Source of the DNA: Scatophagus argus
Taxonomy: Eukaryota; Chordata; Actinopteri; Scatophagidae
DNA: 64,000 bases
Assembly (NCBI RefSeq): GCF_020382885.2
Contig: NC_058503.1
Location: 423,110-487,109, forward strand
Direction of reading: 5' to 3'
The notes below the pieces were generated by a model that was given only the letters and a program-made list of their open reading frames with translations, ran no database searches and was not told the DNA's origin. A program made the position numbers and the translations under genes. How positions within the stretch are numbered: position 1 is the stretch's first letter; the number at the start of each line of letters is the position of its first letter. Shown here piece after piece: positions 9,901 to 63,434 of this stretch.

Positions 9901-12900
9901 TTGTCAGGAAAACATAAACATTTTATACAATTGAACAAATTATGCCGGAAACCTCCTACCTGCAGCTATAAATAACATTGTTTATTTTAGACATACACAT
10001 AAGGATACCAAACATATATTACTGAATACACTGAATAAACCGTTTAGGTCAGGTGACAGAATGGCACTCAGGGCGGCGAGAGCTGACAGCAGGAGTGAAG
10101 AGGGCCAAGACCGCATATGCCCAGAAGATCCAGGGACACTTTGCATCCAACGATCCACGGAGCATGTGGAGGGGCATTAAGTGCATCACAGACTATAACA
10201 CCAAAGATGCACAATGCCCCAGGGACCCCTCTCTGCCTGAAGCTCTCAACAACTTCTTCGCCCGCTTTGAGGACCCGGACACCCCCCTCAGCACCAGACT
10301 CACCCCCTCACCTGATGAAGAGCCCCTCAGCGTGACCTCAGCAGAAGTGAGGAGGACCCTCCAGAGGATAAACCCACACAAAGCTGCAGGTCCTGATAAT
10401 ATCCTGGGGCGGGCGCTGAAGGGCTGTGCACATCAGCTCACAGAGGTACTGACGGACATCTTCAACACCTCTCTCCAACAGGCGGCGGTCCCCACCTGTC
10501 TGAAGACCGCTACAATCATCCCCACAAGACTCCTATGTCCGCCTTCTCTTCGTGGATTTTACATCTGCCTTCAATACGATCATTCCACAGACACTGATCC
10601 ACAAGCTCAGTGCACTCGGTCTGAGCTCCACCCTCTGCAATTGGGTCCTGGACTTCCGCAAACAGTGAAGATCCATGATATCTCCTCCTCCCCCATCACC
10701 CTCAGCACCGACTCTCTCCAGGGCTGTGTGCTGAGCTCCCTCCTGTTCACCCTGCTAACACACGACTGCTCAGCACAACATCCGAGCTGCCTGATCGTGA
10801 AGTTTGCGGATGATACAGCTTTGGTTGGACGCATCGCCAACAGCGACGAGGCCGACTACAGGCAGGAGGTGGAACGCCTGGAGGGTTGGTGCAGAGAGAA
10901 CAACCTCTGCATCAACGTGAAAAAGACCAAAGAGATGATCGTGGACTTCAGAAGGGGCAGACATCTCCCCCTTCCTCCCCTGTACATCAGAGGGACAGCG
11001 CTCCTGCATCACCGTGTGGCACGGCAGCTGCTCTGCAGCAGAGAAGAAGCTGCACAGAAGACTGTGGGACGCAGTCTATCCACCACCACAGACATTTACA
11101 CCTCCAGGTGCAGGAAAAGGGCCTCCTGCATCATGAAGGACCCCACCCACCCCTCACACAAACTGTTTGCCCCTCTCCCCTCAGGCAGGAAGCTGCGGAG
11201 CATTAAGAGCAGGATCACCAGACTGAGGAACAGCTTCTTCCCAGAAGCTGTGAGACTGTTGAACTCTGGAGGACATCTGTAGCCCCTGCTGCCAACCTCA
11301 TACCTCAACACCCCCGCCACACACACACACACACCTCCCGACAACCACCCATGAACATTTGCACAGAACTCTGAACTACTCATCTCATTGCACTACTGTC
11401 ATTTGCACTACTCTGTCGGTCATTTGCACTACTCTGTCATTTGCACAATACCGCAGTACTGTTTAGATAGCTTTATTCTGATGTTTATATCTTTTATTCT
11501 GATTGCTTTTTATATTTATATAGCGTTGTTTATATTTATTTGCATTTGTTAGGTAATTGGGCTTATACCGGGACCAGGGAAACTAATTTCGTTCCAACTC
11601 ATGTTTCTACATGTGTGAAATGACAATAAAGCTCCTTGAATCCTTGAACCCAAAAGATACTGTAACTCAACAGAAGCTCAAGCCTCACATTCATTATGTG
11701 GAAGGTTTAAGGCTTACCTGCAAATACCACAGCTAACTCTCCCCTTGTCCTTGCAGTGTGGATGGCTACTGTCCTGTGGGTCATCACATTCACACTCACA
11801 GTTTGTAGATAAAGACACAGTCAGTGTATCTTTAATGCCAAGTGGTCTGATAGTGAAAGACGTGTTCTTCATACATGAGTCCGCCGTCACAGTGACATCA
11901 AAGGCAATCTAGAGTGGACAGTTAGTGTTGGGTGGTCAGACAGAAGTGTAAGACATTTACAGTGATTTAAACATATAAACTAAATACCCTGATTCATTAA
12001 TTTCTCTTGTATTAACATTCAGTATTCCGTTCTTTACAGACTGAATATAATCCTAATGAATCCTCGTTTTCAGAAAGATTAAAGTGACATATTTTGTCAT
12101 TGGAGGGAACTCACTCCAACAAAATTTGTTCTCTGCGTTTAACCCACCCAAGTGACATGCACACACACACAGCAAACCCGGGGCAGTGGGCAACCGCGTG
12201 CAGCGGTGAAAATCGCCACTGAACTTCAGCGAGCGGCACAAGAATGGGACTCTTTGATAATATAATCGAAGGTGGCATGTCTGTTTATAAGAATCTTCTT
12301 GCCCAGAAGAAAAAAGAGCGCCAACAACTACCCATAACTATGTTCTTCTCTCGGAAAAAGACACCTGCACCACAGCCTTCAGTAGAAAAAGACGCTATAG
12401 CGGAGTCAGGACGAAGAGGCACAGTCAGAGGGACTGTGAAATACGTGTGAGTCACAATGTGTCCAACCTCGTATTGATTATTAAAATTATTATTTTACAG
12501 TATTTCTAAAAACTATCGTAGTTATTTGTAAGAAAACATTTATATTTTTGTGTCTTAAACAAATGCTTGGGCCTGAAAACAGGTTTTGATCTTTGGTTTC
12601 ATTCTATAGTACAGTATTGTATTGTATAATAATTGGAAAAAATAAAGCTGACTACTTCACGGATTTCGCCTATCGCGGGTTCTTTTTGGAACATAACCCC
12701 CGCGATAAACGAGGGTTCACTGTACCGCTTATCCGTCAGGGTCACGGGGGAACTGGAGCCTATCCCAGCTGACTACGGGCGAGAGGCAGGGTACACCCTG
12801 GACTGGTCGCCAGTCAATTGCAGGGCCAACACACAAAGACAAACAACCACACACTCACACCTAGGGGCAATTTAGAGTAGCCAGTTAACCTAATGTGCAT

Positions 12901-15900: not shown

Positions 15901-18900
15901 AATAAGTTGTGTTTTATACACATATTAAACACTGTAAGCAGAAAAGGGGAATATTTTCATTCACAAGCAGAGAAAGACATTGTAGACTTTACATTGAAGT
16001 GAACCCAGACAGATAAGTGGTATAGAAAATGATGAAAGGATGGACGTTTGAGTGGAGGGACATTATAAGTATAATGGACATCCTGATTCTCTCCCTCATT
16101 TATTTACTGTGGAAGGCCAGGGTTACAACGTCCAAAAAACGGATTTCACAACATACAAGTCAGGAGTTGAAGGGTTGATGATATTGTTGATGGTATTGTT
16201 GATGAATGGGCTAAACAAAGGTTTTTTCTAGGTTTATCATTTTCTAATAATCAAAACACCTATACATAATTTTCAAATGTTACTCACAGTATATTGTTTA
16301 TTCTTTGGTGAAGGGAGTTCTTACCCCACATACAGCAGCCTGCATCATGGCATCAAGACTCCCTTCAGGAGAATCCAAGTTCCCAGAAATGAGCTGCTCT
16401 GTCACTTTTCTTTTGAAATCATCCTTACTTGGTGTCATATTAAGCACGTGTCTGTAGCCAAAAGCAGCCTGACACTGCTGGTCGTTCTCATCACATGGCT
16501 TCTGCAGTTTCTTCTCATTGGTATTAGTATATGGAAGGACTGTCTTGTCAACAAAGGCACCAAACCCTATAGTTATATAGGAAAAGTCATTATTTATTTA
16601 TCTATCTATCTTTACTTTATTGTTTTATATATATATAGATATATATATATATAGATATATATACTGTACATCCAGAAAATATTAAGACCGCTTCGCTTTT
16701 TCCACATTTTGTTATGTTACAGTCTGATTCCAAAATGGATTAAATTAAATTTCTTCCTCAAAATTCTACACAAAATACCTCATAATGACAAAGAGAAACA
16801 AGTTTGCATGATTTTTTTTTTTTTTACAAATTCATTAAAAATGAAAAACAAAAAATGTAACATGTACATAAGTATTCACACCCTTGCCATGACACTCAAA
16901 ATTGAGCTCAGGCATGCATGTTGGTGGTAGCATCATGCTGTGGGGATGTTTTGTGGCAGCAGGAACTGTGAGACTAGTAAGGGTTGAGGGAAAGATGACT
17001 GCAGCAATATACAGAGACATCCTTGCTGACAACCTGCTCCAGAGTGCACTGGACCTCAGACAAGAGTGAAGGTTTATCTTCCAACAGGACCCTAAGCATA
17101 CAGCCACCATCACAAAAGAGTGTCTTCGGGACAACCCTGTGAATGTCTTTGAGTGGCCCAGCCAGAACCCAGACTTGAACCCTATTGAGCATCTCTGGAG
17201 AGATCTGAAAATGGCTATGCACCGATGCTCCCCATCCAACCTGATGGGGCTTGAGAAGTTCTGCACTGAAGAGTGGAAGAAACTGCCCAGAAATAAGTGT
17301 GCCAAGCATATAGGATCATACTCAAAAAGATTTGAGGCTGTAATTGCTACCAAAGGGGCTTCAGCAAAGTATTGATCACAAGGTGTGAATACTTATGTAC
17401 ATGTTATATATATTATTTATTTATTTAATAAATTTGCAAAAAAATTCTAGCAAACTTGGTTTTTATGGGTTATTTTGTGTAGAATTTTGAGGGGAAAAAT
17501 TAATTTAATCCATTTAATCTCATCCATGGAATGAGACTGTAACATAACAAAATGTGCAAAATGCTTCTCCTGGCAGCAGATACAACTCCTACCAGTCATT
17601 ATCATAAAAAAGATTCAGTTTGTCTTATTTGAAGTCCCTCTTATAAATAAACCTCTTCTTTCATGGTTAGTTAATGGTGGCTGTATTCTAAAATCTAAAC
17701 AAATAATAAATATTGGTATGTTAAAAGATTATTGGTTGGAAATGAAATTTTATTACCTATTCTAGCGTGTTCAGTGATTTTATTCAGTTCTGCGAAAAGA
17801 TCTTGTCCCAGATCTTTGACATTTTCCAAATCATCTTTCATGGAGTAAGACAGGTCCATCAGGTAATAGAGATCAACTGGATAACCCTGAACTCTTTTAA
17901 AATAGACAGGAAATGTGATAGAAAGCCCTGTAAACACAAAAGGGAAACAAATGAAATACAGAAATACTGCCACGATCATTTTCAAAATAAAGTCTAAAAG
18001 TTTGAAGTCTAATGTGATGATAAAAAAAACTTGAAAAACATTCAAACATTGTACGATTTTCAGCCAAACTCTAGATAATGACCTTGGGGCACACAGATAA
18101 CTGCCCTGGTTTTACTCTGCCCTGGAAAAACTTCATTTTTCTGTTATTAAAGGTGAGTATGAACCTATTCTACTCACCAGGTCGCAGTCTCAGACTAATT
18201 TTCTGTGGACTTAGCTGCACAGGCTCCTGCTGGTTGAATGACACCGACAAAGGATCTTCTTTGATATTGCTTTGATGGTTCTGAGGAGAGATAATTTGAT
18301 CCAACTTGCAGCCTCTCTCTCTTAAATTAGCTTGGGTGTCACATCGTGCTGCTTCCTGCTCACCTGGTTTGGTAAAGTTCTGAACAAAATGGAGGCAAAA
18401 ACAGAAAAAACACACAGGAATTGCCTTTTACAATAAGCACGTAAGTTTACTTATCTGTCGGCATTTAGTGTTGTTAAACCAGTATTAACATAATGTTAGA
18501 ATGACAACTGTCAGTATTATAATGGCTCACACAGGGTACAGCACACCACTCTGCTGAAAATATTTTTTTCAAAACAAATACTGTTATTAGACATTTCCAG
18601 TCTTTGCCACTCAAACTTTTTTTTCAGAATTTGTTTGTTGTCACATTCACAGATATTAAATACAAATGCAAGAACAACTTTTGATGTGACTATGACTGTG
18701 ATGAACACTGAATGATCCCTTCAATTCAATTCAATTCAATTCATTTCAATTCAATTCAATTCAGTATATATTCAATATAGCACCTTTTACAATCAAAATT
18801 GTCTCTAGGTGCTTTACAGAAACCCAGAGCGAGGACTGGCAAGGAAAAACTCTCTTTTAACAGGAAGAAACCTTGAGCAGGGTTTGTCAGAGGGCCAGAC

Positions 18901-21900
18901 GCAGGTCGGCATGTAAATTTGGATGAAGAGAGACCTGCAGAAAGATACAGAGAGAGAGGAAGGGAGAGACACAAAACTTCTCTCTCCCTCCACTTCCTCA
19001 CCTCTTTCTTGCTCCATATGCCTGATTGTTAACTACTCCTCTGCCTCGTTTACTGATAATGGTACTTGTAATAAGTGCAGCTTTTTGCAGCCCTGGAGGC
19101 AAAGCTTAGTGCTTAGTGCTCCGCACCATAGATAGTAAATCATTGGTGACTCTGTTCTTCGGAACATGAAGTTAGAGACTCCTGCGAACATAGTTAGGTG
19201 CCTCCCTGGGGCCAGAGCGGGCGACATTTAAGCTGGATGTCAAGGTGGTGTTCAGAAAACAACGTGGCCGATATATACAACTGGAAAACTTTCTAGGGAA
19301 AACCTGGTCTGGTTCGGAGAGATGGCATCCATTCTAATTTGGATGGGGCAGCTCTCTTGTCTATGAACATAGTAAATTCTGTACGCCACCCAAAACCATG
19401 ACAGCCACCCAGAGTCCAGACCAGGAGGCAGAGCTGCTGTCTTACACACCCCTCTGCAAGCTCCTTTCTACTGTCACCCCCGACCACCCTCTTCACGCCC
19501 CATAGAAACTGTGTCTGCCTTGAGGCTGTATAAGCCCACACCAAATCTGGAGCTGTGTTGAACTGTTAAAACTGTTAAACGTTAGATCTCTCATCTAAAG
19601 CTGTACTAGTAAATGAGTTAATATTGGACTGTAATATAGGTTTATTTTGTTTAACTGAAACCTGGCTTCGGCCAGAAGAAAATGTCAGCTTAAATGAATC
19701 CACTCCCCACAATCATATCATATCACATCAATCATATTAACACTCACATTCCTCGGGACACCAGTCGAGGAGTTGCAGTCATTTTTGACCAAAACCTATC
19801 ATTCAATCCAAAACCCAAAGTCAACTACCACTCATTTGCCTTATTCTTAGTCTCTCACACCATACCTGGAAAACAGTACAACCAATTTTTATTGCTGTAG
19901 TGTACCGCGCTCCTGGCCCATGCTCTGAATTTCTACTGGAATTTTCAGAGTTCCTATTGAGTCTCGTCCTTAAAACTAATAAAGTAATTATTATGGGCGA
20001 TTTCAACATCCACGTGGACGATGGTAATGATAACCTTTGCGCAGCAAAAATAGAGAGATAAATCTCTCTATTAGATTCAATCAGCTTCTATCAGTGTGTA
20101 CATAAACCCACTCACTGCATCAGTCACACTCTTGACCTAGTTCTGACATATGGCATTGAAGTAGAACATTTAATAGTCTTTGAACAAAATCCTCTTCTAT
20201 CTGACCATTGTTTAATAACTTTTGAGTTTGTACTATTTGATTTCATACCACCAAGAATAAAATCCTACACTAGATACCTGTCTGATAATGCTGTGGCTAA
20301 ATTTGAAGAAGCAGTTCTATTGTGATTTACTTTAGTATCATGTCCCGATACTAGTGAACAATACAATAATCCCTCTCAAACTGACCATTTTGTGGACTGT
20401 TGCCCCACTAAAAATGAAACGCATAAAGCAAAAGAGACTTGCACCCTGGTATAATACACAGGTTTGCAAATTAAAGTAAAATGCGCAAAAACTTGAAAGG
20501 AAATGGCCTTCCTCCAAACTTACTGAATCTCACTCAATCTGGCAAGACAATCTTAGAATATAACAGAAGGCCCTACGGACTGCCAGAGCAGCTTATTACT
20601 ATTACGAAATTAATTGAGGATAACAAGCATAATCCCAAGTTTATCTTCAGCACTGTAGCCAGGCTGACAGAGAGCCATAGTGCTATCGAGCCTTGTATCG
20701 CTCTGACCCTCAGCAGCAATGACTTTATAATCTTTTTTAATGACAAGATTTTAAACATTAGAGACAAAATTCAACACCTACTGACCTCAGCTGGTACCGA
20801 TCAACATCCAAACACTGGAACCTTAGAAACAACAGTAGAAACAGATAATCATCTTGACTGCTTTTCTCCTATTGACAATCATGTCTGTCTCAGTGTGTCA
20901 GGGGACTCATGCACCACCCCTAGTTGCCATGACATTGATAATTTAGTTGATAGCACTGCATGCTCATTGCACAGCACACTTAACCTAATTGCACCTCTAT
21001 CTAAAAAGAATATAACTAAAAGAAGCTCTGCTCCATGGTACACCCAGAAAACACGTGAGTTAAAGCAAAGATCACGACACATGGAGAAGAAATGGCATTC
21101 AACAAAAAAAAGGATGAATTCTATCAGGCCAGGCAAGATAGTCTAAAAACATACAGGGCAGTACTCCGTACAGCCAGAGCCAGTTATTACTCATCACTCT
21201 ATCGAGCAATCCATTCCTCCACATCTCAGTAGTAGTGATTTCATGAACTTCTTTAATGAAAAAAATGTAACTATTAGAGATAACATTCAAGACTCCTAGC
21301 ATCACCTATCACAAATTTGTCCTTCAATGCAGCCGCATTGGAGATAACCACTAAGCCAGATACGTACCTAGACTCATTTCTTCCTATCAGCCCTCAACAA
21401 TTGGCTTCTATCATTTCCTCCTCTAAATCCACAACCTGTCTCTTAGATTCCTACTAGGTTACTTAAGGAAGTGTTCCTTTTACTTGGCACCTCCTTACTA
21501 GACATTAATTTGTCCCTGACATCAGGCTATGTCCCACAGACTTTTAAAGTTGCTGTAATCAAACCCCTGCTAAAAAAGCCCCCTCTTGATCCAGGAGTTT
21601 GAGCAAACCATAGGCCTATCTCGAACCTGGTCTTCATTTCGAAAATTTTGGAGAAAGTCGTTGCCAGTCAGCTGTGCAAGTATCTCCATAATAACAGCCT
21701 ATTTAAAGTCTTTCAGTCAGGTTTTAGGGAACATCACAGCACAGAGACCGCACTGGTAAAAGTCACCAACGACCTGCTTATGCCCTCTGACCAGGGCTGT
21801 GTTTCAGTACTTGTCCTTCTGGATCTCGGTGCTGCATTTGATACTGCTGACCACCAGATTCCTTTACAGAGGCTAGAAAATCAAATTGGTATAAATGGAA

Positions 21901-24900
21901 CTGCTTTAAGCTGGTTCAAGTCCTATCTATCAGACAGACATCTCTTTGTACATGTAAATCACAACTTGTCCATGCACACTAAGGTTAGCCATGGTGCTCC
22001 ACAAGGTTCTGTGCTTGGCCCGATCCTATTCACAATCTATATGCTCCCACTAGGCAATATGATCAGAAAGCACACCATAAATTTTCACTGTTATGCTGAC
22101 GACACCCAATTGTATTCATCAATAAAGCCAGATGAAAGCAATCAGCTAACACAACTGCAATGCCTTGTTGCAGATATTAAGTCCTGGATGACCCACAACT
22201 TTCTTCTGTCGAACTCAGACAAAACTGAGGTTCTACTAGTTGGTCCAAAACATCTTAGACAATCTTTAGCTAATGATATAGCCTTTCATAACGGACTAGC
22301 TCCTGCCTCTAGCACTATTGTAAAGAACCTGGGTGTTAGCTTTGATCAGGACTTGTTTTTCAACACATACATAAAACAAATCTTGAGGACTGCATACGTC
22401 CACCTTCGTAACATTGCAAAAATCAGGCATGTCCTTTCCTTAGATGCCACTGAGAAGCTCATCCATGCTTTTGTTACCTCTAGACTGGATTACTGTAACT
22501 CTCTTTCGTCAGGATGCCCTAAAAAGTCCCTCAGAACTCTGCAGCTCATGTTCTGACTAAGACTAAGAGGCGTGACCACATTTCTCCTGTGCTGGCCTCT
22601 CTACATTGGCTTCCAGTAAAATTTAGGGTAGAATTTAAGATCCTCCTCCTAACCTACAAAGATGTGCATGGTCTGGCACCATCATATATCACTGATCTCA
22701 TTGAACCGTATCAGCCCTCTAGGATGCTGCGTTCCTTAGATTCAGACATACTGGTAATACCACAAATCACCAAATGTAGATATAGAGCCAAGGCCTTCAA
22801 GCTACTCTTCTGTGGAACCAATTATCGGCCTCAGTTTGGGCTGCAGACACCCTCTCTATGTTCAAGAGTAGACTTAAAACCCTCCTTTTGGACAAAGCCT
22901 ATAGTTAGGACTGTTCAGATTCTGCCTGGACCAACCCCTGGTTATGCTGCTATAGGTTTAGATTGCTGGGGGAGATCATTAGACACTGAGCTTTCAGAGC
23001 AAGGGGACTCACTCATCATGTCCCATCACCAGTACAGCACTAACTCGCCCTCTCTCCCGAGCTCTTGTGCTCCATCTTTTCTCAGCACTTCTGGATCATG
23101 TTGCTGGATCCAGAATCTCCTACCCTGCTCCTGCTCTGCACTGTTCTCTCTATCCTCCCTGTCTCTCCTCTCTCCCCCTCCCTTTTCTCTCTATGTCCCC
23201 CTATCCTTTCTCTCTCCATCTCCCTGTCTGTCCTCTCCCATCTCTCCCTCCCTTGCAGCAGAAGCCTGTCTAAACTGAGTCTGGTTCTGCTCGAGTTTTC
23301 TGTCTGTTAAAAGGAAGTTTTTCCTGGCCACTGTCGTCAAATGCTTACTCAGTGTGGGGTTTTGCACAGGGACCTGTTTCTATCTGATTCTGTTCTTTTT
23401 ATGGATTTGTGGTGTTTACTCACCTGTAAAGTGTCTTGAGATAACTCTGTTATGAATTGGCACTTCAAATAAAATTGAATTGAATTGAATTTAATTGAAC
23501 AAAGCCGAGGTTCTTCACAGTCGTATTGGAGGCCAAAGTAATGCCATCCAGAGAGAGAATATGATCAGCTATTCTAGTTCTGAGATGTCTGGGGCCAAAA
23601 ACAATGACCTCAGTTTTGTCTGAGTTTAATAGTAAAAAATTGGAGGTCACCCAGTCCTTTATGACCTCAAGACATGCCTGACTTCTGACTAATGGCTCTA
23701 TTTCTTCAGGCTTTATGGATAAGTACAGCTGGGTATCATCAGCATAACAATGAAATCAGAGGAAAGACGTCCTTAAGGAGCTTAGTTGGGATCTATGGTG
23801 AAATTTATGGTGAAAAAAGTTCCTGGCATGGTAATGATCAATACTTGACACAGAGACAAACATGGCATGCAGACAAACAACGAACTCACGAAGAGTGATC
23901 GGGGGAACAAGGACTAAATAGACAATACAATGAGACAAAGGTGAAACACATTAGGGAGGAGCAAGCAATCGAGTTAAACTAAAATGAAGATACATGAAAC
24001 AGGGACACAGAGGGGAAGTGACTCTGGAAAACAGAAAAAACCTGGAAAATAATACACATGACAAAACAAAAATGAAACAGGACTGAAAAACCAAAAGACA
24101 AAACATAACTTAAACTAATACAGCGTGACATTTAGTGGGGCAACCATATCTAAAACTGTGTGTAAAGTGACTGCAGTGTTGTTTACAAAGCAGTCAATTT
24201 CTGCAGGAGTAATATTTAAATCAGTGTGGTCTGTTGTACTGGCACATGGTGCTGAAGGGAGCTGTGATGGGATTGCATCCCTAAATCTGTCTACAGTATT
24301 CTCAGAGAGGCATCTGCTATAGTAAACCTTTTTGTTGAGTCTGTTGAAGTTAGTTCAAAAGTTATAAGTCAGTGGTCTGAAAGGAGAGGGTTTTGAGGGG
24401 CAACTAACATGTTCTTACTTTCTAGGCCATAGGTGAGAACCAGATTGAGGGTGTGATTATGACAGTGTCATTGGTTAATTTACTATCTGAAAGAAACCTA
24501 CTGAATCTAAGAGTGAGTTAAAGGCTGACTTAGGACTGTCAGATTCGAAATCCATATGAAAGTCACCTACTATAATGACTTTATCTGTACTGAGCACTAA
24601 ACTAGATAAGAAGTCTGAAAACTCAGACAAGAACTCTGGAACTCATTAGTATTTTGGATTAGTTTCTGTCTCCATCTGTTTGTTTGTTAAATTCCAGGCT
24701 CAGTGCAAAGTTCTGATGCAAGCCATGCACTAACTAGTCAAATGAGTGGAGCAACCACAGTTAAACTTAGTACTTTGCTGTGTTGGGACATTTCTAGGTG
24801 TTAGCCTTTGTGCAGCTCTGTGGTCCCCAGCCAATAAAAGTGCAAGGTATGAAAATGGAGGCACCAGGTTATAGTTGTCTCTGTTTCTCCACCGCCTCTC

Positions 24901-28624: not shown

Positions 28625-28890
28625 ATTACTGTTGCTCACAACCTCTGTTGCAGTTCATCCAAAACTGTCAACAGTTTGGGGAAGGCCCTTTTCTGGTCCA
28701 TCATGACTGTGCCCCAGTACACAAAGCAAGGTCCATAAAGACATGATTGGATGAGTTGGTGTGGAAGAACTCGACTGGCCCTCACAGAGGCTGGACCTCA
28801 ATCCCATCGACCATCTTTAGGATGAACTGGAACAGAGATTGTGAGACGGGCTTTTTCATCCAACATCAGTGCCTGACTGCAGTATTGCTC
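28625..28890 (+). mobile_element. Tc1/mariner transposase C-terminal fragment
   Basis: Reads DCAPVHKARSIKTWLDE and, in another frame, DLNPIDHL followed by DELEQRL, i.e. the third catalytic block of a Tc1-like transposase. Stops and a frameshift; dead. Confidence 0.6.
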
Positions 28891-41983: not shown

Positions 41984-44900
41984 GTAAGTCAGGTTTGTCT
42001 TTACTTTTATAATATTAAGAGATTGAGATGTTTTTTACAGCCTAACTGCAACTTAAGAAAACACATGCAGATAGAACTGGTATGACAGACGCATACGCCT
42101 CAGTACAATGTAGTCCAAACTGTGATCTCAGTCAGATATGTGTAAATTCAATTCTCTGTTTCTAACTGTTATTAATTCTCTGAATCTAGTTGTTTCTAAA
42201 TGTCAACAAAAAACATTACATTACAAACATTAGTACATTATAAACTTTGTAAAGGTGGAATTTATTGCTGAGGTGTTGTTGAATTGAACTGAATAAGGAC
42301 ATGTTTACTGGAAAAGTTTATTAGTCCTGAAAAATCCCACTGAAAGATGAAACAGGACATTAAAAATTATTTTATTATTTTGATATTTTCTGTATTCTGA
42401 TATGGTTTTCAATCACAGTCTTTTTTCAGTGACAGCACTTTTTTAAGTTTGTTTAAGTAAACTTTGAACTGATGTTATGCTGGTCTGGCCGAGGTCTGCT
42501 GGAGCAGTTATGGTCAGCTATCATAGCTAACGTCGGTTCTTATATGAGAAAGGCTCAATATGCTTGCTGTGTGGAAGTTTCACTGTAATCATGGAAACCA
42601 CTGCTGCATGCCAAGTGTCTTGTCAGATGCTTCGGAGCAGACCTCTCTCCAACAAAGTGTTTATAGTGAAAAAAATACTGATATTGTAAAAACAAACTGT
42701 TTCTGAAAATAGATAGACATGAGAAAACGGTTAAAACATTGTCATTGAAAAACAGTACAATAATATCAAAAAGCAGTACTTTTCAATGTATTTGTTTTCA
42801 GTTACATTTTGTTTTCAATGTCAAATTTATTGTTGATGCCAACATTTAAAGAGAGTGTTCTAACTCTATAGCCACCTGAGTGTGAGTCTCGACACTATGA
42901 AAAGAATGCATCAAACTCTGTTGTGTGTTTGTTTTGTACAGCTAATGAAAAGTAAATCAACAGTAGTCATACATTAAATCCATCTTCCATGAAGGTTCTA
43001 ATTTTCAGTACAGTGACAAACGTTTGTTATTTGTTTCAGTGTTTGATTGAATTTTCCTCAGGATCAATAAAGTATCTATCTAGCTAGCTATCATTTGTTC
43101 ACATGATTTAGACTCTTCAACATGAAGATATTATGAATATATTTCATTTTTTGTCATTGTGAATGCAATATTCTTTTTATTAAACATTATGTGGTTGGGG
43201 GCTTGTCTGTGAGAGAGGCTAACACTGATGTGTTTTCAGGTCATGCGTAGCAGAGCTAGACTAGTCAGTTACCTCCCAGGACTTCAGGTGTTGGTACGTC
43301 ATGTGACTGGAGCCAGAGCCTTTTCTGGTGCTGTATCCTCAGGCTCTGATGAGCCCCACATAGCCATCACTGCTTTTAACATGGGTATGTAATAGCTGTT
43401 TTTTTTCTATTTGTTTTTTTTTTTTCATTTGAATGTGTATTTTCTGTTAAACCACTTTGGCATGCATTATGTTCCTGATTATTTTCCTGATGCGCCTTTT
43501 TGGCTAAGGACCGCGAACAGTGTGGCCTGATGAGAACATGGGGCCTTTTGGACCTCAGGACCAACACTTCCAGCTCCCTGGTGATGTGGCTTTTGATTGC
43601 CACCTGGAAGGACAATCAGAGCAGAAGAAGAGCTTGGCACACAACATGATCCCTGATGTGCTTCCTCCCCTGTCCATCAGTGTGAGACATGAGCTCATAT
43701 TGACCCAGTTTGTCGGAGACTTCTTTGTAAGTGTAGTAATGTTTTTGTGATTGAGAACACTGCTCCACATCTATGGGAAAAATCACTTTAATATTCTTTT
43801 CTATTATGGCCAGAAAAAAATGCTAATTTCTGATTGTTTTGCATTTATGTTAAAACTTAAACCAGTACCCCACATATACAGTGGCTTGCGAAACTATTTG
43901 GCCCCCTTGAACTTTGTGACCTTTTGACACATTTCAGGCTTCAAACATAAAGATATAAAACTGTAATTTTTTGTGAAGAAACAACAACAAGTGGGACACA
44001 ATCATGAAGTGGAACAAAATTTATTGGATATTTTTAACTTTTTTAACAAATAAAAAATGAAAAATTGGGTGTGCAAAATCATTCAGCCCCATTGAGTTAA
44101 TACTTTGTAGCGCCACCTTTTGCTGCGATTACAGCTGCAAGTCGCTTGGGGTATGTCTCTATCAGTTTTGCACATTGAGAAACTGATATTTTTGCCCATT
44201 CCTCCTTGCAAAACAGCTCGAGCTCAGTGAGGTTGGATGGAGAGCGTTTGTGAACACCAGTTTTCAGTTCTTTCCACAGATTCTCAATTGGATTGAGGTC
44301 TGGACTTTGACTTGGCCATTCTAACACCTTGATATGTTTTTTGGTGAACCATTCCATTGTAGCTTTTGCTTTATGTTTTGGATCATTGTCTTGTTGGAAG
44401 ACAAATCTCCGTCCCAGTCTCAGGTCTTTTGTGGACTCCATCAGGTTTTCTTCCAGAATGGTCCTGTATTTGGCTTCATCCATCTTCCCATCAATTTTAA
44501 CCATCTTCCCTGTCCCTGCTGAAGAAAAGCAGGCCCAAACCATGATGCTGCCACCACCATGTTTGACAGTGGGGATGGTGTGTTGAGGGTGATGAGCTGT
44601 GCTGCTTTTACGCCAAACATAACGTCTTGCATTGTTGCCAAAAAGTTCGATTTTGGTCTCATCTGACCAGAGCACCTTCTTCCACATGTTTGGTGTGTCT
44701 CCCAGGTGGCTTGTGGCAAACTTTAAACGACACTTTTTATGGATATCTTTAAGAAATGGCTTCCTTCTTGCCACTCTTCCATAAAGGCCAGATTTGTGCA
44801 GTATACGACTGATTGTTGTCCTATGGACAGATTCTCCCGCCTCAGCTGTAGACCTCTGCAGTTCATCCAGAGTGATCATGGGCCTCTTGGCTGCATCTCT

Positions 44901-47900
44901 GATCAGTCTTCTCCTTGTATGAGCTGAAAGTTTAGGGGGACGGCCAGATCTTGGTAGATTTGCAGTGGTCTGATACTCCTTACATTTCAATATTATTGCT
45001 TGCACAGTGCTCCTTGGGATGTTTAAAGCTTGGGAAATCTTTTTGTATCCAAATCCAGCTTTAAACTTCTCCACAACAGTATCTCGGACCTGCCTGGTGT
45101 GTTCCTTGTTCTTCATGATGCTCTCTGCGCTTTAAACAGACCTCTGAGACTATCACAGTGCGGGTGCATTTATACAGAGACTTGATTACACACAGGTGGA
45201 TTCCATTTATCATCGTTAGTCATTTAGGTCAACATTGAATCATTCAGAGATCCTCACTGAACTTCTGGACAGAGTTTGCTGCACTGAAAGTAAAGGGGCT
45301 GAATAATTTTGCACGCCCAATTTTTCGTTTTTTTATTTGTTAAAAAAGTTTAAAATATCCAATAAAGTGTGTTCCACTTCATGATTGTGTCCCACTTGTT
45401 GTTGATTCTTCACAAGAAATTACAGTTTTATATCTTTATGTTTGAAGCCTGAAATGTGGAAAAAGGTCACAAAGTTCAAGGGGGCCAAATAGTTTCGCAA
45501 GCCACTGTATCATGAATCGTCAAGTCATTACAGTCTGACACTGCCTCCAAACTGCACTGAAATTCATAAGCTTGTCTCAACAGAAACAGTCTGTACTTTC
45601 AAGGCAATATACAGACGATCAAGTGAGGCAGGAATTTTCAGCTCTACCTCCTGTCTTGCCCACATTGTTTCTAGGCCCCTTTAGTCTCAGTGGTAAATGA
45701 AAGTTGTATGTGTGTGTGTCTTAGGAGAAAGATAACCCTACTTCATCTCAGATTGTCAGCAGACCTGAACAGTACTTTGACAACTGCAGTGTGGAGTGTG
45801 CCATACAGTTCTGCCCTGAACTACTGAAGAAAGGTATGGTACTGATATTGCATTTCTCGCATTATCTGTAACTTCTTTGTTCATTTTGTTTATTTGGACT
45901 AGTTATAAAGAAATGGGCTGTAGACCTACAAACATACTACATGTGGACCTTAATTATTACATTTTTAAAATGTTTTAATGTGTCTTTGCTGGGATGGTGA
46001 CTTTGTAATTAAGGACCAGGCATTTCTGCTGCCAGACCTCTTACAATTGTCTTCCTCCTCTTCTTGCTACACTGCATCTTCAGACTGTTCTATACAAGCG
46101 ATCCAAACAGACTGTTGAATTATAAAACTTGAGCCCACAGTACATCAGAATGTTTGACTCTAGATGTTACTGTAAAAATACTGCAGATTCTCTTCATAGA
46201 AAAAAGCAAGAACGCACTTTTGAGTTCATGGTAGTCGTGGCATGGAAAATTTCTGAATTTTGAATTCTAAACTATCGCAGTCAGTGGTAAATAGAGCATT
46301 TTTTGCTTTTTGCACTTCTGTCCTTGTGAGCTGCCACAACAAGTGAATTTCCCCACTGTGGGATCAATAAAGTTCATCTTATCTTATCTTCAACATCAGT
46401 TTCTCATGTATAAAGCAATTGATCATAATAAATAAATTAAAAACATCTCTGCATTGTCTTGATCAGGGGTGTCCAAATTTTTTTTTCCAGAGGACCACAT
46501 ACAGAAAAATATACGAAGGACCAGGCCACTCACTAGACATGAGGTATACTGCCTCACTTCTAATGCACTAGTATTGGTAAAATCAAATGCAGGTAAATTA
46601 CATTTACAAAATACATTTGATAATTGAACATGTTTAAAGAAAAAAAGCCTTCATCACAGCTCGCCATTAGTAGATTTTCATTTTATTTTTTACAAAAGGT
46701 TGGCAGGTCACAGAGGGCTTCTTGGTGGATGATGCAGTGCATTTTGACAGCTTCACCTCCGCTTTCTTTTCTTTTTTGTTTCATAATGTCATCATACATT
46801 GTACTCTTTCATCATGGCAACCGTTCATTGCAAATCAAACAAACACATTTCCCCTTGGTTTCTATGAAAAAAATATTCATTTTTCTCTTTTCAGAGTCTG
46901 AAATTTTCTGCACTTACTTCTGATCTTGCGTCTCTTTAGTTGTGCCATTTCTGGTGGACACGCTGCCTTGTTCAAGACAATAGCTCTACCTAGTGTTGAA
47001 ACTAAGAAGAACAATACAGTTAAGCACAAATATTATGTGTGTGCCATAGTCCATTATATTTTTGGACTCTGATACAGCCCAATTACAAATGGGTGGCGGG
47101 CCGTAGTTTGGACACCCCTGGTCCATATAAAGTACACAAATTTTTTTTTTTTTTTTTTTGTTGAGCTCAGCAAGATTATGACTTTTGAGCCCTGAGTGAT
47201 GCAGAATGAACATCTTATACTGAATTAGTCATTGTGCTAGGGGCGCCCGTCCTGCATGTTTCAGATGTTTCCTCTTTCCATCACACCTGATTCAAATGTT
47301 CAGCTAGTCATCTTTAAATTCTGCATAAACCTGATAATCACTCTTTCATTTGAATCAGGTGTGTTGGAGTAAGGAAAACTCTGAAACAAGCAGGTGCTCC
47401 AGGATCGGGACTGAAAAACACTGAATTAGAGATGCATGATTCCAAGAAATTTCTAATTAAAAAGTTTTATGTAATTGGCTGGGCTATGGACCCTCATGTA
47501 GTTATCAGAACCATGTATGAATACAAGTCATGATTCCTGCCATTTCAAAGCACTTTTCTGGATAGTTCAGCATGATAATGATGGGCTATCAGTTGTAAAG
47601 ACTGTGGGTTCAAGACCCATGAATTGCAGCAGGAACAGCTTATGTCTACTGAGGCATTGTGCTGAATGAACTAGAGCTATAACTTCAGGGTTTAATTGTA
47701 ATTTTGGTCCAGAAAGAAGAATTCTGCTGATAGACCCTATAATATTGCTCATTTGCCTTCCTCCTCTTTTTTCACCCCCTCCCCAGTTTGTAATTCTCTT
47801 CACCACAAGGAGAGCAGAAATAATGTTCTTATTGGTAGTGATAAGCAGTGTTTCTGTCTGATGTGTACATTTCCTGATAATGTGATGAACAGATTTCCAG

Positions 47901-57903: not shown

Positions 57904-60900
57904 GGACGAAGGGAGGGGCAACACAGAGAGAGATGCAGAACAACAGAAATAATAACAAATAATATAAAACTAGTAATATAAAATGATATGAACAGTAATT
58001 CCCACATAACTAAAACCTCAAACTCATGGTCTTAAATGAGTGGGGCTACACTGAGAGACATTAGCTGTGCACGTTATCGTGAAAAGGGTACCTTGCCAGG
58101 GTGAGTGTGGATGTTGAGAGTGTATTTACCAGTACAACACTGGGGACTGGCACCCCATTTCACTGGCAATGTCCCTCAAAATCTTGATAAAGAAAATGTT
58201 GGACATATAATAAAGCCAGCGCACATACATTTATGTTCCTTAAAGGGCCTACTTGTGTGAGTGCGTGTGTGCAGCAGTGCTTGTTAGGACCTGAAAGTGA
58301 AAAACCACACACTGATCACTCAATCAATATGTACCTCAAACTTAACAGCAGGATCCATGGTAATTAGTTTTGGTGTCACATCCAAACTACTGATGTCACA
58401 GGGCACACAACACTTGGTAATCTTCAAGACCTGAGAGGCCACTGGAGGGGAGAAATCAAGACAACATTATGTATAATTAATCAATCAAGGTAATCAAGAA
58501 GTTTTTATTGGCATTTCAACTGTTTACAGTAACAGCGAACTGTGAAACAAGACAGCATTCTTCCAGGGATCAGGTGCAACACTAGAAATGAAATACACAG
58601 TAAGGTATTTAGTGTGGGTTTCGTATCATTACTATGTCTTACTGGCACTGGTAAATGATACTCAGCTCGTCCCCAGTTAAGGCCATGTTTGTCTGTTACT
58701 GTTCCAGTAATTCCTATTTTGATACATATCCAAAACAGCAGTGCCCTTTGCTGGCTGAATAGCTCCATGAACTGAAATCCAAAAAACAATAAAGCCAAAA
58801 ACCTGTTTGCACAGCTACACATGGGGATTCACCTACCTTATGGGGACAAAATGCAAGTCCCCATGGGGAAATGAATAACTTTTAGGGTGAAGACTTGGTT
58901 TAAGGTGAGGTTGAGTTTGAGGTTTAGGTTAAGGTTAGGGTTAGGCAAGTTATGGTTTTGGTTTTCAGTAAGTCTGCAGGAAATGAATGTAAGTCTATGT
59001 AATGTCCCCACTGGGCATAAAAACCTAAACTGTGTGTGTGTGTCTGTGTGGAGGGGGTTCTACATTGAACGCTACTTTTTCTAGACCTCATACCATGGAT
59101 CGAATCAAGAATAAAAAATAGTCTTTTCCTCATCATCTCTATATGAACATGCATGATTAACACATGACTGCCTGAATAGTGATGAATAAGAAAAATATGT
59201 TTATTTACATTTGCCATCTGCAACACTCTTAGCTTAGCTTATGAACATTTGATGGAATCCTAAATAAATGGGCCATGCATGCACAACCTTTTGGTCAATC
59301 AGATGATCTATTGACCTTGTGGTGAAAAATTAACAGCACTCATCAGTGCTGGTGGCAAGTATCTTTTGACAGGGAGAGAGTCTTACAGAGTCTTATTCTT
59401 TTTTTAGGTGGATCCAGCATGGGCCTAATTGACATATGTTTTATTATACGCATCCCACTGTAGAAAAGCATCTTATAAATTAGGCCTGGGACAATATGCC
59501 TACTTGGATGCCCATTTGATTTAGAATCAGTTCTCAAATTAATGAGTAAAGGGGCACCGCTTTCAGTATTTTTCTTCAGTACACTGTGTGTCAAACCATT
59601 CATTAGTGTCCTTAGTCCCGTTAATTACAATATGAAACATAACCTGACAGTACCTGGAAATACTTACCTCATTGGTAATTCATGAAGTCCATATGTAACT
59701 AAACCACAGCTGTTTTGGTAATTTTAACTCATTGTCGTGAAAATTTACGTGTGACCTTTACTTAAAAATGCAAAAAGAGAGCTAATATAGATTTATATAT
59801 TGATTTATACTGATAATTTACATCTTTTATGACCTGTTTCACAGGTCTGGGTTTTTGTTCCTGTTCGAGGTTGTTCTAAAAGGGAAATTCTTCTGTGGTG
59901 TGCAGGGACAAACAAACATGCGACACAAGACTGAAGAGCCAAATCCACCAAACCTGACTGTGTTTCTAAAGACACAACACAGCTTCATCCTGAAAATGAG
60001 ATCTCATTACAGTTGCACCTTTGGTAAACTCACTGCTAAAGTGGTAGGAGTGTTGGGGTTTATTTTTATTTTTTCAGCAAAAACTGAATGAAGTACATAA
60101 CAGAAATTTAATTTTATCTGAACGGAAGTGTCGTGCATTTTATACTGCATTTTGTTTTCATGATTGTCAAGGTTACGATTTGTTCTCCTTCCCTGCCTCT
60201 CCATCTATACACCCGCCGCTGATTGAAACTATAACTAACTCCACCTCCTGCCTGCTGTTAAAAGACTGGTCCTGCCACTGCATCTCCGCCAGATCGTTTG
60301 CTTCCTTCATGGTAACAGAGCTTCAGCCTCTCTACCCCTAGGGCATATTTTTTAAATCCAAACCGTTGTAATTCTTGTTTTGATTCCCAGATCCACCTGC
60401 CTCTCTCCACCATTCCCCTTGCCCAGCTCTGTTTCCTGTTTGGAAAAGTTTTTCGTTGTTCTAATTAGGCAGTTGATTGTGACACATAATCAATATAATT
60501 TGGCTTTTTAGACAAAAATGTACAAAAAAACCTCTTTTCACTCAAAATGAAAACAGATTTCCACAAACGAATGTCAATTAAAAATATCTAGCGTAAAATA
60601 AGTGATTGCATTAATAATCACCACCTTCAAGTCATTATTTAGTAGATGCACCTTTGGCTGCAATCACAGCACTGAGTCTGTGTGGCTAGGTCTCAGTCAG
60701 GCTTGCATATCTGGACACTGCAATTTTACTAATTTCTTCTTGACAAAACTGCTCAAACTCTGTCAGGTTGCACAGGGATTGAGCATGAACAGCCTTTTTC
60801 AAGACCAGCCACGAATTCTCTATTGGACTGACGTCTGAGCTTTGACTCGGTCAAACCAGAACTTTCACCTTGTTGTCTATAAACAACTTCTGTGCAGCTT

Positions 60901-63434
60901 TCCTTGTGTGCTTTGTGTCATTGTCTTACTGGAAAATAAATTTTCTCCCAAGTTGCAGTTCTCTTGTGGACTGTATCAGATTGTCCTTCAGAATATCTCT
61001 ATATTTTGCTGCATTCATTTTACCCTCTTCCTTTACAAGCCTTCCAGGACCTGCTGCTGGGAAGCATCCCCACAGCATGATGCCACCAACACCATGCTTC
61101 ACAGTGGGGATGATGTGCAGGAGACACAGCATCTAGGATGATGGCCAAAAAGCTCCATTTTGTTCTCATCAAACCAAAAAACCTTCTTCCAGTTGACCTT
61201 GACCTTCTAACTTAGTTTAACTGAACTCCAGGAGATGTTCAGTGACCTGAATTTTTTTTTCGTTTCCATCCTGACTTAAACTTTTCAATAACCCTTTCTC
61301 TGAGTTGCTTGTAGTGTTCTTTTGTCTTCATGGTGTAATCGTAGCCAGGAATACTGATTAATCAGTGTCTGAACCTTCCAGACACAGGTGTTTTTATACT
61401 ACAATCATTTGAGAAACATTGACTGCACTGAAGTGATCTCCATTTTACTAGCACCAATTGGCTAGACCTCTGCTGAATCAATCACTTTAAAGTGGTTGAA
61501 TATTTCTGCAATCACTTATGGCTCATTTCCACCTAGCAGTATACAGTTCTGTATGGTACGGTACACAATTATTTGTGTTTCCATTAGGAGAAGTTGTGAA
61601 GTGTACCAAAATAAGTGTACTGTACTGTACTGTACTGGTTTTTGGCACCCTTCTTTTGGGGTACCAAGTATGGTGGTACAGTATGGTACGGTTTAAGACA
61701 CAGCCATTGCCATCTGTTGATTGTCACACAGCGGTGAGGTATTGTCTGGTTTTGGTTTTATGTCTCGTCATTTCCTGTTTTATTTTGAAAAGTAACTCTC
61801 CTCTCGTTTCAGGTCACTTGCCCTTCCTCATGTGTCTCCAGTCTGATTGTCTTCCCGATTACCTGATTGTGTCCACCTGTTCCCCATTATCCCTTGTGTT
61901 CAAATGGTCTGCGTTTCCCTTGTCTTGTGCCAGTGTGTTTCGTCCTTGTGCGTACACTCCAGCCTTATTCTCGCCACAGCCACGAATATCGCCTTTGATC
62001 GCCTTCTGTTCTTGCCTCTCTTCCAGAGTGATTTTCTGTTGTAATTTTCATAGCTTAGATCTCTTTTGCCCCTTAGAATAGTGTCAGGTTTTTGTGCCTC
62101 GCTTTTGTTTACCTCCTTAGGAGTGATTTTTAGTTCTTTAGCAATCCTCTCTGTAGATAGTAGTTTTGTCCTCGGCTTTGCGAGTGATTTCTGGTTTTCC
62201 AGTTTCTTTTCGTTCCTAGTTATTCTTTCCTCCTATGGGAGCGTTTTCAGTTGAAGTCAGAATAGAAAGTCCCCTCGGTAATGTTATAGCTCTTTCAGAG
62301 AATCTTAATAAAGTCAGCGGCTGTGCCACTATCTCTGCGTCTGAGTCCTGCTTGAGCCCGATCGTGACATTGATTGGTCGTTACGAAGTTGTCACTTCCG
62401 TGAGACAACGTTATAATACAATACAAACACTTCTTGGATTAAGTTTAATGCTGCAGTGTGTGTTGGTCATTTGTTATTACTGATTGCTATTCCAAAAATG
62501 TACATGATGACAGGGGAACTAGAAGTGGGTCGAGCTAAGCATTACACCTGCACCATATATCTTTAGTAAAGTCAGACTACAAGAGGCCTAAATCAGGCTC
62601 AGTGTACACTTTCAGAAGAACTCAGATAGTTATTATATTATTACACAGTAAATTAGTTTAAGTCATTTGTACCTCTCTCCTCTTCAAATGTAATGAGTGC
62701 CTGTCCTCCCTGCAGAAGCACAGTGGGTCTCTGGCTGATGGCAAACACTCCTCTGACTGACTGATTGTCGTTCTCCCTCTTTTCTTTGTTCGGACCATTG
62801 AATTTGACCTCTGAGTCTGGAATCTGTATGCACATCTGGAAAAGTGGAGTAATACACTCAGTTACAATGATTTTAAATGTTATATTGTATGTTATTATTA
62901 TTGTGTCTCAGACTGGCTTCTCACTATTTTCTTATCGCATGTCAGTGTAATTGCTGCATTATATAGATGTAATGTTGCTAATCAATTGACTAAAAAGGAT
63001 GCAGTGACAGAATGTATTTAGGAGAGAACAACTTGGGCTGGAGGACAGCTTGAGGACTTTCTTCATTCCCACCTTGAATTTTTGCTTCAGCTTTGTGGAC
63101 TCTGCCTTCTTTGCCTGCAGTTCAACTTGACATCTTCTCAGTTTGTCCAGCAAATCCTGTTTGCATTTGCCAAGCTTCCGGATTTTATCCTGTATGAAAG
63201 AATTAAGTGAAAAAAATTGTTATTCTCATCCAGTCTCTTCCCAATGGACTATAGATGTCACAGGGACAACTGTACCTGCACTGAATTAATGCTTTGAGCA
63301 AATGCCTTCTGACACTCCTCTTGCTTTTGGACATAAGTCAACATCTCCTGCTGGGCCTTTATTTTGGTATCATCTTCTTCCAGTTTCTCCAGTATCAGTC
63401 TGGCTTTCACATCATCAGCTTTCTCTGCTTTAGT
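55403..63434 (-). CDS. nmi: N-myc interactor-like (NMI/IFP35 family), 5' end not seen
   Basis: Interferon-induced cytoplasmic protein; in mammals it modulates STAT and NF-kB signalling and acts as a danger signal with IFP35. Exons, 5' to 3': 63434-63276, 63189-63073, 62835-62673, 58441-58335, 57588-57402, 56264-56161, 55627-55403 (TAA 55405-55403). They sum to 1062 nt, 353 residues from the first visible codon, in frame, GT-AG. Residues 1 to about 92 form a Lys/Glu-rich coiled coil. Then IPDSEVKF and QGGQALITFEEE lead into two NID units: ELKVSNVLSS, LEMSFSRPSRGGGEVESVKY and ITFLNPGVAENLALRGG; then KFQTFCGSPRRTILLDGIED and LEIHFQKPSNNGGEIESIKY. The initiator Met is upstream or in an unrecognised exon. 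IFI35 is the alternative, but the long coiled coil and the location near mmadhc favour nmi. Confidence 0.9.
55628..56160. other. nmi intron, no feature
   Basis: Nothing recognised. Confidence 0.4.
56161..56264 (-). CDS. nmi: nmi exon: inter-NID
   Basis: 104 nt between AG (56266-56265) and GT (56160-56159). AENLALRGGYHVDLGSEVHV and YKYHLRKFQ. Confidence 0.92.
56265..57401. other. nmi intron, no feature
   Basis: Nothing recognised beyond ordinary AT-rich intron sequence. Confidence 0.4.
57402..57588 (-). CDS. nmi: nmi exon: first NID core
   Basis: 187 nt between AG (57590-57589) and GT (57401-57400). IHLSVSRKELKVSNV, then LEMSFSRPSRGGGEVESVKY: the GGGEV motif of the family. Confidence 0.93.
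57655..57965 (-). mobile_element. LINE 3' UTR, minus, with (GA)n
   Basis: aattcaattcagttcaattt, atagcaccaaatcacaacaa, then a GA run of about 36 bp (57866-57901). Reverse of the LINE end at 50.9 kb. Confidence 0.75.
58335..58441 (-). CDS. nmi: nmi exon: first NID
   Basis: 107 nt between AG (58443-58442) and GT (58334-58333). ASQVLKITKCCVPCDISSL and TPKLITMDPAVKFE. Separated from the previous exon by a 4.2-kb intron. Confidence 0.88.
58820..59010. repeat. GGTTAG-like simple repeat
   Basis: Variants of aggtttaggttaaggttagg and ggttagg at 58900-58950, flanked by gtccccat words. Part of a common fish repeat. Confidence 0.5.
59030..60595. other. nmi large intron, no clear feature
   Basis: No gene. 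60170-60480 looks like decayed retroelement sequence but is unassigned. Confidence 0.35.
60600..61505 (-). mobile_element. Tc1-like transposon remnant
   Basis: The minus frame 61132-60926 reads IIPTVKHGVGGIMLWGCFPA and MNAAKYRDILKDNLIQSTRE. gtgattgca near 60602 and tgcaatcac near 61507 are remains of the termini. Multiple frameshifts; the catalytic domain is broken. Confidence 0.75.
61506..61716. repeat. GTACGGTAC-type repeat
   Basis: tatggtacggtacacaatta, tgtactgtactgtactgg, ggtacagtatggtacggttt: repeated GTAC palindromes, probably a non-autonomous DNA element. Confidence 0.5.
61722..62369 (+). mobile_element. Solo LTR with perfect 5-bp duplication
   Basis: A 648-bp unit starting tgtcacacagc and ending gatcgtgaca, i.e. 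TG...CA with short inverted ends (tgtca/tgaca). It is flanked by ttgat at 61717-61721 and 62370-62374. An aataaag at about 62308 fits the LTR's own poly(A) signal. No internal genes; the open frames inside are chance. Confidence 0.85.
62375..62672. other. nmi intron, no feature
   Basis: Nothing recognised. Confidence 0.4.
62673..62835 (-). CDS. nmi: nmi exon: start of first NID
   Basis: 163 nt between AG (62837-62836) and GT (62672-62671). Contains MCIQIPDSEVKFNG and LLQGGQALITFEEER. Confidence 0.88.
63073..63189 (-). CDS. nmi: nmi exon: coiled coil
   Basis: 117 nt between AG (63191-63190) and GT (63072-63071). DKIRKLGKCKQDLLDKLRRC and ELQAKKAESTKLKQKFK; continues the heptads. Confidence 0.82.
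63276..63434 (-). CDS. nmi: nmi exon: coiled coil
   Basis: 159 nt between AG (63436-63435) and GT (63275-63274). TKAEKADDVKARLILEKLEE and YVQKQEECQKAFAQSINSVQ: strongly helical. The acceptor follows a pyrimidine-rich stretch. Confidence 0.8.

Follow-up and report, generated by a model that had tools for sequence, protein, structure and literature searches.

A full-length DD34E transposon with the IR/DR layout lies in an intron of mmadhc in Scatophagus argus. Its family has probably spread horizontally between fish, and the copy itself has probably drifted and become weakened or inactive; we give this reading a probability of roughly 0.75. The element is a further member of an already known kind, the long-repeat DD34E elements of ray-finned fish, and adds one more fish host to the large-scale pattern of Tc1/mariner transfer between ray-finned fishes. 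In the following, the window is the whole 64-kb stretch of DNA that was analysed, and positions are counted from its first letter.

Structure of the element and its insertion site

The Tc1/mariner DD34E element spans 43879-45507 (1,629 bp), and its ends read TA-CAGT...ACTG-TA. Its parts and the two exons that flank it are as follows.

43509..43726, plus strand: mmadhc exon that precedes the intron with the element; starts after AAG and ends before GTAAGT
43877..43878, no strand: left TA target-site duplication
43879..44093, plus strand: left terminal inverted repeat (215 bp), which flanks the transposase gene on its 3' side
44066..44095, plus strand: inner direct repeat in the left arm; a single base separates it from the stop codon of the transposase
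44097..45116, minus strand: transposase, 339 aa, DD34E
45117..45291, minus strand: non-coding leader, from the transposase start to the right repeat
45292..45507, minus strand: right terminal inverted repeat, 216 bp
45292..45317, minus strand: inner direct repeat of the right arm
45508..45509, no strand: right TA target-site duplication
45725..45833, plus strand: mmadhc exon downstream of the intron; starts after TCTTAG and ends before GTATGG

When the two arms were aligned, 204 of the 215 aligned bases were the same, with 11 mismatches (4 transitions and 7 transversions) and one gap. The initial annotation had described clean TA duplications, which are present on both sides (43877-43878 and 45508-45509), and inverted repeats of about 212 bp that were almost identical; the repeats are indeed long, but they measure 215 and 216 bp and are about 95% alike. 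Arm divergence was considered as a clock and rejected, since Tc1 arms need not be identical when inserted. A chance origin of the element is excluded by its inverted repeat of 215 bp and by Pfam matches with E-values as low as 1.8e-25.

There are two direct repeats in each arm, which is the IR/DR layout of Sleeping Beauty-type elements. The inner repeats were aligned locally with the outer 45 bp, and each arm was controlled with 300 single-base shuffles. The right inner repeat scored 28 (best shuffle 20) and the left 26 (best shuffle 24). None of the 300 shuffles was as good in either arm, and the left repeat taken alone exceeds chance narrowly. Internal direct repeats are also mentioned for long arms in PMC9777934.

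The plus-strand exons of mmadhc, a vitamin B12 metabolism gene, were joined by eye at GT/AG sites in a model that begins after the first coding exon. The spliced product has 293 residues, matches Pfam MMADHC at E 3.1e-132 and agrees with Scatophagus argus Mmadhc along its full length (100% identity). The exons on either side of the element are joined in this database protein (a predicted isoform) in the same way as in our splice by eye. Among the best 120 of 907 matches, the next-best identities were 81% (Lates and Cottoperca), and an Acipenser model with 63% identity was second by E-value. The intron (43727-45724) measures 1,998 bp and would be 367 bp without the element. As the initial annotation had it, the insertion is antisense in an intron, with the flanking exons on the plus strand and the transposase on the minus strand.

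The transposase and its relatives

The transposase gene (44097-45116, minus strand) is one open frame of 339 residues with zero internal stops, and Pfam recognized HTH_SB (residues 1-51), HTH_Tnp_Tc3_2 (68-138) and DDE_3 (148-299) in its product. All three catalytic residues of the uninterrupted DD34E transposase that had been proposed (D152, D243 and E278) were found, and 34 residues separate D243 and E278. Like Tc1 DD34E elements in general, the element encodes one transposase of about 340 aa that carries a bipartite HTH DNA-binding domain, and the TA duplication and the 34-residue spacing of the DDE triad place the element in the Tc1/mariner DD34E group. The interdomain linker reads PFL in the window copy and in its seven closest aligned relatives.

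Of 7,978 candidates scored in the protein search, 7,394 had E up to 0.001, and the best 120 were listed. Among these 120, the closest (P0001, 95% identity) represents a cluster of 2,560 sequences. It is followed by Oncorhynchus mykiss (93% and 92%), O. kisutch (92%) and Lepisosteus (89%), and lower identities were found for tilapia (81%), plaice (77%) and goby (72%). A quick tree was built from 41 of the listed relatives and the window copy (42 rows), and in it the window copy fell within an 11-row clade (SH-aLRT 100) with Oncorhynchus, gar, a poison frog and other sequences. Scatophagus is a percomorph, and so are tilapia, plaice and goby. Since the copies of these three percomorphs are less similar to the window copy than those of trout and gar, the order of similarity does not track the hosts; distinct sub-families could also produce such an order. 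Searches with the single protein and with an alignment gave pattern matches in viral and prokaryotic genome contigs, none confirmed as relatives, and plasmid, E. coli and phage records had zero nucleotide-level matches to the element.

Non-coding similarity and probable horizontal spread

The N-termini of four gene models, P0005, P0006 and P0020 from Oncorhynchus mykiss and P0094 from Pygocentrus nattereri, match repeat or leader DNA of the transposon and look like translated non-coding transposon parts. Residues 19-99 of the trout model P0005 (445 aa) match the non-coding stretch 45509-45267, which covers the TA, the repeat and 25 bases of the leader, at 68 of 81 codons; the same DNA, when shuffled, reached at most 10 of 81 codons in 20 tries. 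Outside the repeat, the leader stretch 45213-45118 is matched by the piranha model P0094 at 28 of 32 codons and by the trout model P0020 at 26 of 32, and P0006 agrees with it in 77% of 35 columns, in an alignment that has a gap. According to mutation simulations (5-95% ranges), a nucleotide difference of 6-10% is compatible with the match of the 81-codon block, and differences of about 4-12% and 4-15% with those of the two 32-codon leader blocks. The simulated differences to the trout and piranha models centre on about 6-9%, a comparison made within gene models that have open frames.

The host protein Mmadhc is 72% and 69% identical in Oncorhynchus and 73% in Metynnis, that is, 27-31% of its amino acids differ. 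Because the non-coding DNA of the element is more alike than this conserved host protein, the comparison points to a horizontal spread of the element family among fish lineages. The argument is weakened by functional constraint that may act on the leader and the repeats. Such constraint would also suit vertical inheritance within ray-finned fishes, and so would the presence of long-repeat Tc1 elements in very many ray-finned fish, as described in PMC9777934. However, a nucleotide difference of about 6-9% in the leader and repeats is below the amino-acid difference of Mmadhc, and we consider vertical inheritance very unlikely. The initial annotation had also suggested recent transposition; this holds in evolutionary terms and indirectly, in that the non-coding parts still match the trout and piranha models.

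Horizontal spread would agree with what has been reported for other fish elements. Across 307 surveyed vertebrate genomes, at least 975 transfers were inferred, of which 93.7% involve ray-finned fishes, and Tc1/mariner was the commonest transferred type (PMC7070016). Similar horizontal patterns were described for salmonid elements by de Boer et al. (PMC2198921) and for lamprey elements by Kuraku et al. (PMC3516227).

By analogy with Sleeping Beauty, the transposase would be expressed from its own leader, and its DNA-binding domains would bind the outer and inner direct repeats in both arms. The bound transposase would then pair the ends of the element, and the DDE centre would cut and insert it at a TA. 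The family probably moved horizontally between fish lineages, and this copy would have inserted antisense into the mmadhc intron and drifted afterwards, presumably with a loss of activity.

State of the copy

We compared the window transposase with seven close relatives (P0001-P0004 and P0006-P0008) and took the conservation of each column from 24 aligned relatives. Twelve of its residues are absent from all seven. Each of the seven has 1-6 residues that are private against the other six and the window copy, counts that are lowered by their non-independence, as they are mostly salmonid or cluster with salmonids. Three of the 12 residues, C45, R164 and G287, are at columns that are invariant in all 24 relatives, and the window residues at 45, 164, 172, 214 and 287 occur in none of the 24. 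The change W45C affects the first DNA-binding domain; all 24 relatives carry W at this position, and the aligned Sleeping Beauty has Y, another aromatic residue. Each of the other seven private residues is also found among the 24 relatives (P61 in 11 of them and A252 in 14), and thus some of the private residues may be old variants and not damage. C45, R164, G287 and other private residues may also be traits of the host's own subfamily.

Four of the 12 private residues are at columns with at least 90% conservation, slightly fewer than chance predicts (6.6 expected, P 0.11), and three are at invariant columns, as chance predicts (3.1 expected, P 0.62), and therefore neither selection nor drift is established. 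A neutral simulation run up to 12 missense changes, with substitutions as its only events and indels left out, needed about 17 substitutions, and no stop arose in 49% of 2,000 runs. Since about half of the neutral runs keep the frame free of stops, the open frame is weak evidence of activity. We judge the copy to be probably weakened or inactive despite its open frame. More generally, an open frame and long repeats alone neither date an insertion nor prove activity.

The copy might instead be, as the initial annotation suggested, an active one of a currently mobile family, polymorphic at the mmadhc site in the living host species. The open 339-aa frame, the catalytic triad, both repeats and the complete TA duplication are what such a copy would have, the closest relative among the listed matches stands for a cluster of 2,560 sequences, and other relatives tolerate 7 of the 12 private residues. 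However, C45 stands where all 24 relatives have W and Sleeping Beauty has Y, R164 and G287 are at otherwise invariant columns, and the arms differ by 11 mismatches; we regard an active copy as unlikely. We are just as doubtful of the wider proposal of a horizontally acquired Tc1 family that was shared with salmonids and characins in the evolutionarily recent past and continues to move in Scatophagus argus, with a polymorphic mmadhc insertion in living scats. If the family were active, it could provide a native vertebrate transposon tool and a marker of ongoing genome change in the host. An open frame would also be kept in a domesticated transposase that selection maintains because it serves the host, the repeats being mere remnants, and conserved columns carry slightly fewer of the 12 private residues than expected (4 vs. 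6.6). But this depletion is non-significant, and the changes at invariant columns (3 of 12) match chance. Moreover, the repeats and the target duplication are intact and the transposase is antisense within an intron, and domestication is the least probable of these alternatives, with hardly any chance of being correct. A drifted copy of a horizontally spread family is the reading that we prefer.

Comparison with known elements

The salmonid Tc1-like elements represented by the trout models P0002-P0006 have transposases 91-93% identical to that of the window, with matching repeat and leader. The long-repeat DTSsa/SSTN1 families described by de Boer et al. in 2007 (PMC2198921) have the same CAGT ends, insert at TA and carry repeats with a length of about 200 bp, and DTSsa9 is listed there with a 212-bp repeat. 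DTSsa9 and DTSsa10 were compared by their published table values only, and the 12 private residues distinguish the window transposase. Sleeping Beauty, which was reconstructed from salmonid copies (PMC2198921), shares the DDE core, the HTH_SB domain and the IR/DR repeats (SB100X, PDB 5cr4). It belongs to a more distant family: its catalytic core matches the window transposase at E 1.9e-89 (SB100X), but its DNA-binding domain (6urs and 2m8e) at only E 6e-5 and 1e-4.

ZB and ZB-like elements, as described in PMC9777934, are 1.5-1.7 kb long with a transposase of about 340 aa and a TA target, as in the window element. Their repeats are mostly 180-300 bp, a range that includes the 215 and 216 bp found here. 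Their linker has a central PLL, where the window transposase has PFL; section 3.3 of the same paper calls PLL highly conserved and not obligatory, and the likeness to ZB is set by description. One survey found intact ZB-like copies in 155 Actinopterygii genomes (PMC9777934).

The Group 1 Tc1 elements of lampreys and teleosts (DTSsa1; Kuraku et al. 2012, PMC3516227) are the same kind of element and show the same pattern, with close copies in distant fish. Five of the six primers of Kuraku et al. mismatch the element at 7-9 positions (7-10 for shuffled sequence), and the remaining one, in a conserved catalytic stretch, has 2 mismatches; by this indirect primer test the element does not appear to be Group 1 Tc1. 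In literature searches, no paper paired the first 11 bases of the repeat with 'transposon', and among the papers listed for host genome repeats no title was about Scatophagus argus elements. The word 'Scatophagus' is absent from the main text of PMC9777934 and PMC7070016.

Other sequences in the window

The window was scanned for further Tc1-type stretches with the 120 listed relatives as queries (E 1e-5), and three were found.

7092-7571: Tc1-type stretch, remote (29% identity), truncated with stops
16887-17438: Tc1-type stretch, truncated with stops
60545-61331: Tc1-type stretch, truncated with stops

All three are broken, in agreement with the initial annotation that every other Tc1 copy in the window was so. 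An extra match of 24 residues was at 28761-28832 (E 3e-4). At the nucleotide level, two of the three broken stretches aligned with the element over about 500 bp (65% and 68%), and a 68-bp piece aligned at 76%. They belong to families other than that of the intact element. One listed protein, P0071, is annotated as 'IS630 family transposase [Escherichia coli]'. It is inside the fish Tc1 tree, adjoining Polypterus, and shares 77% identity with one of the broken Tc1 copies (window 16917-17372); the bacterial record may be contaminated with fish DNA.

The window also contains minus-strand exons of an integrin beta gene (2428-2745, 8208-8690, 16301-16597 and 17698-18111), with cytoplasmic, EGF and VWA domains. 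Two plus-strand reverse-transcriptase frames, 10035-11279 and 21603-22553, are probably parts of non-LTR retrotransposons, and the latter matches Pfam RVT_1 more fully than the former.
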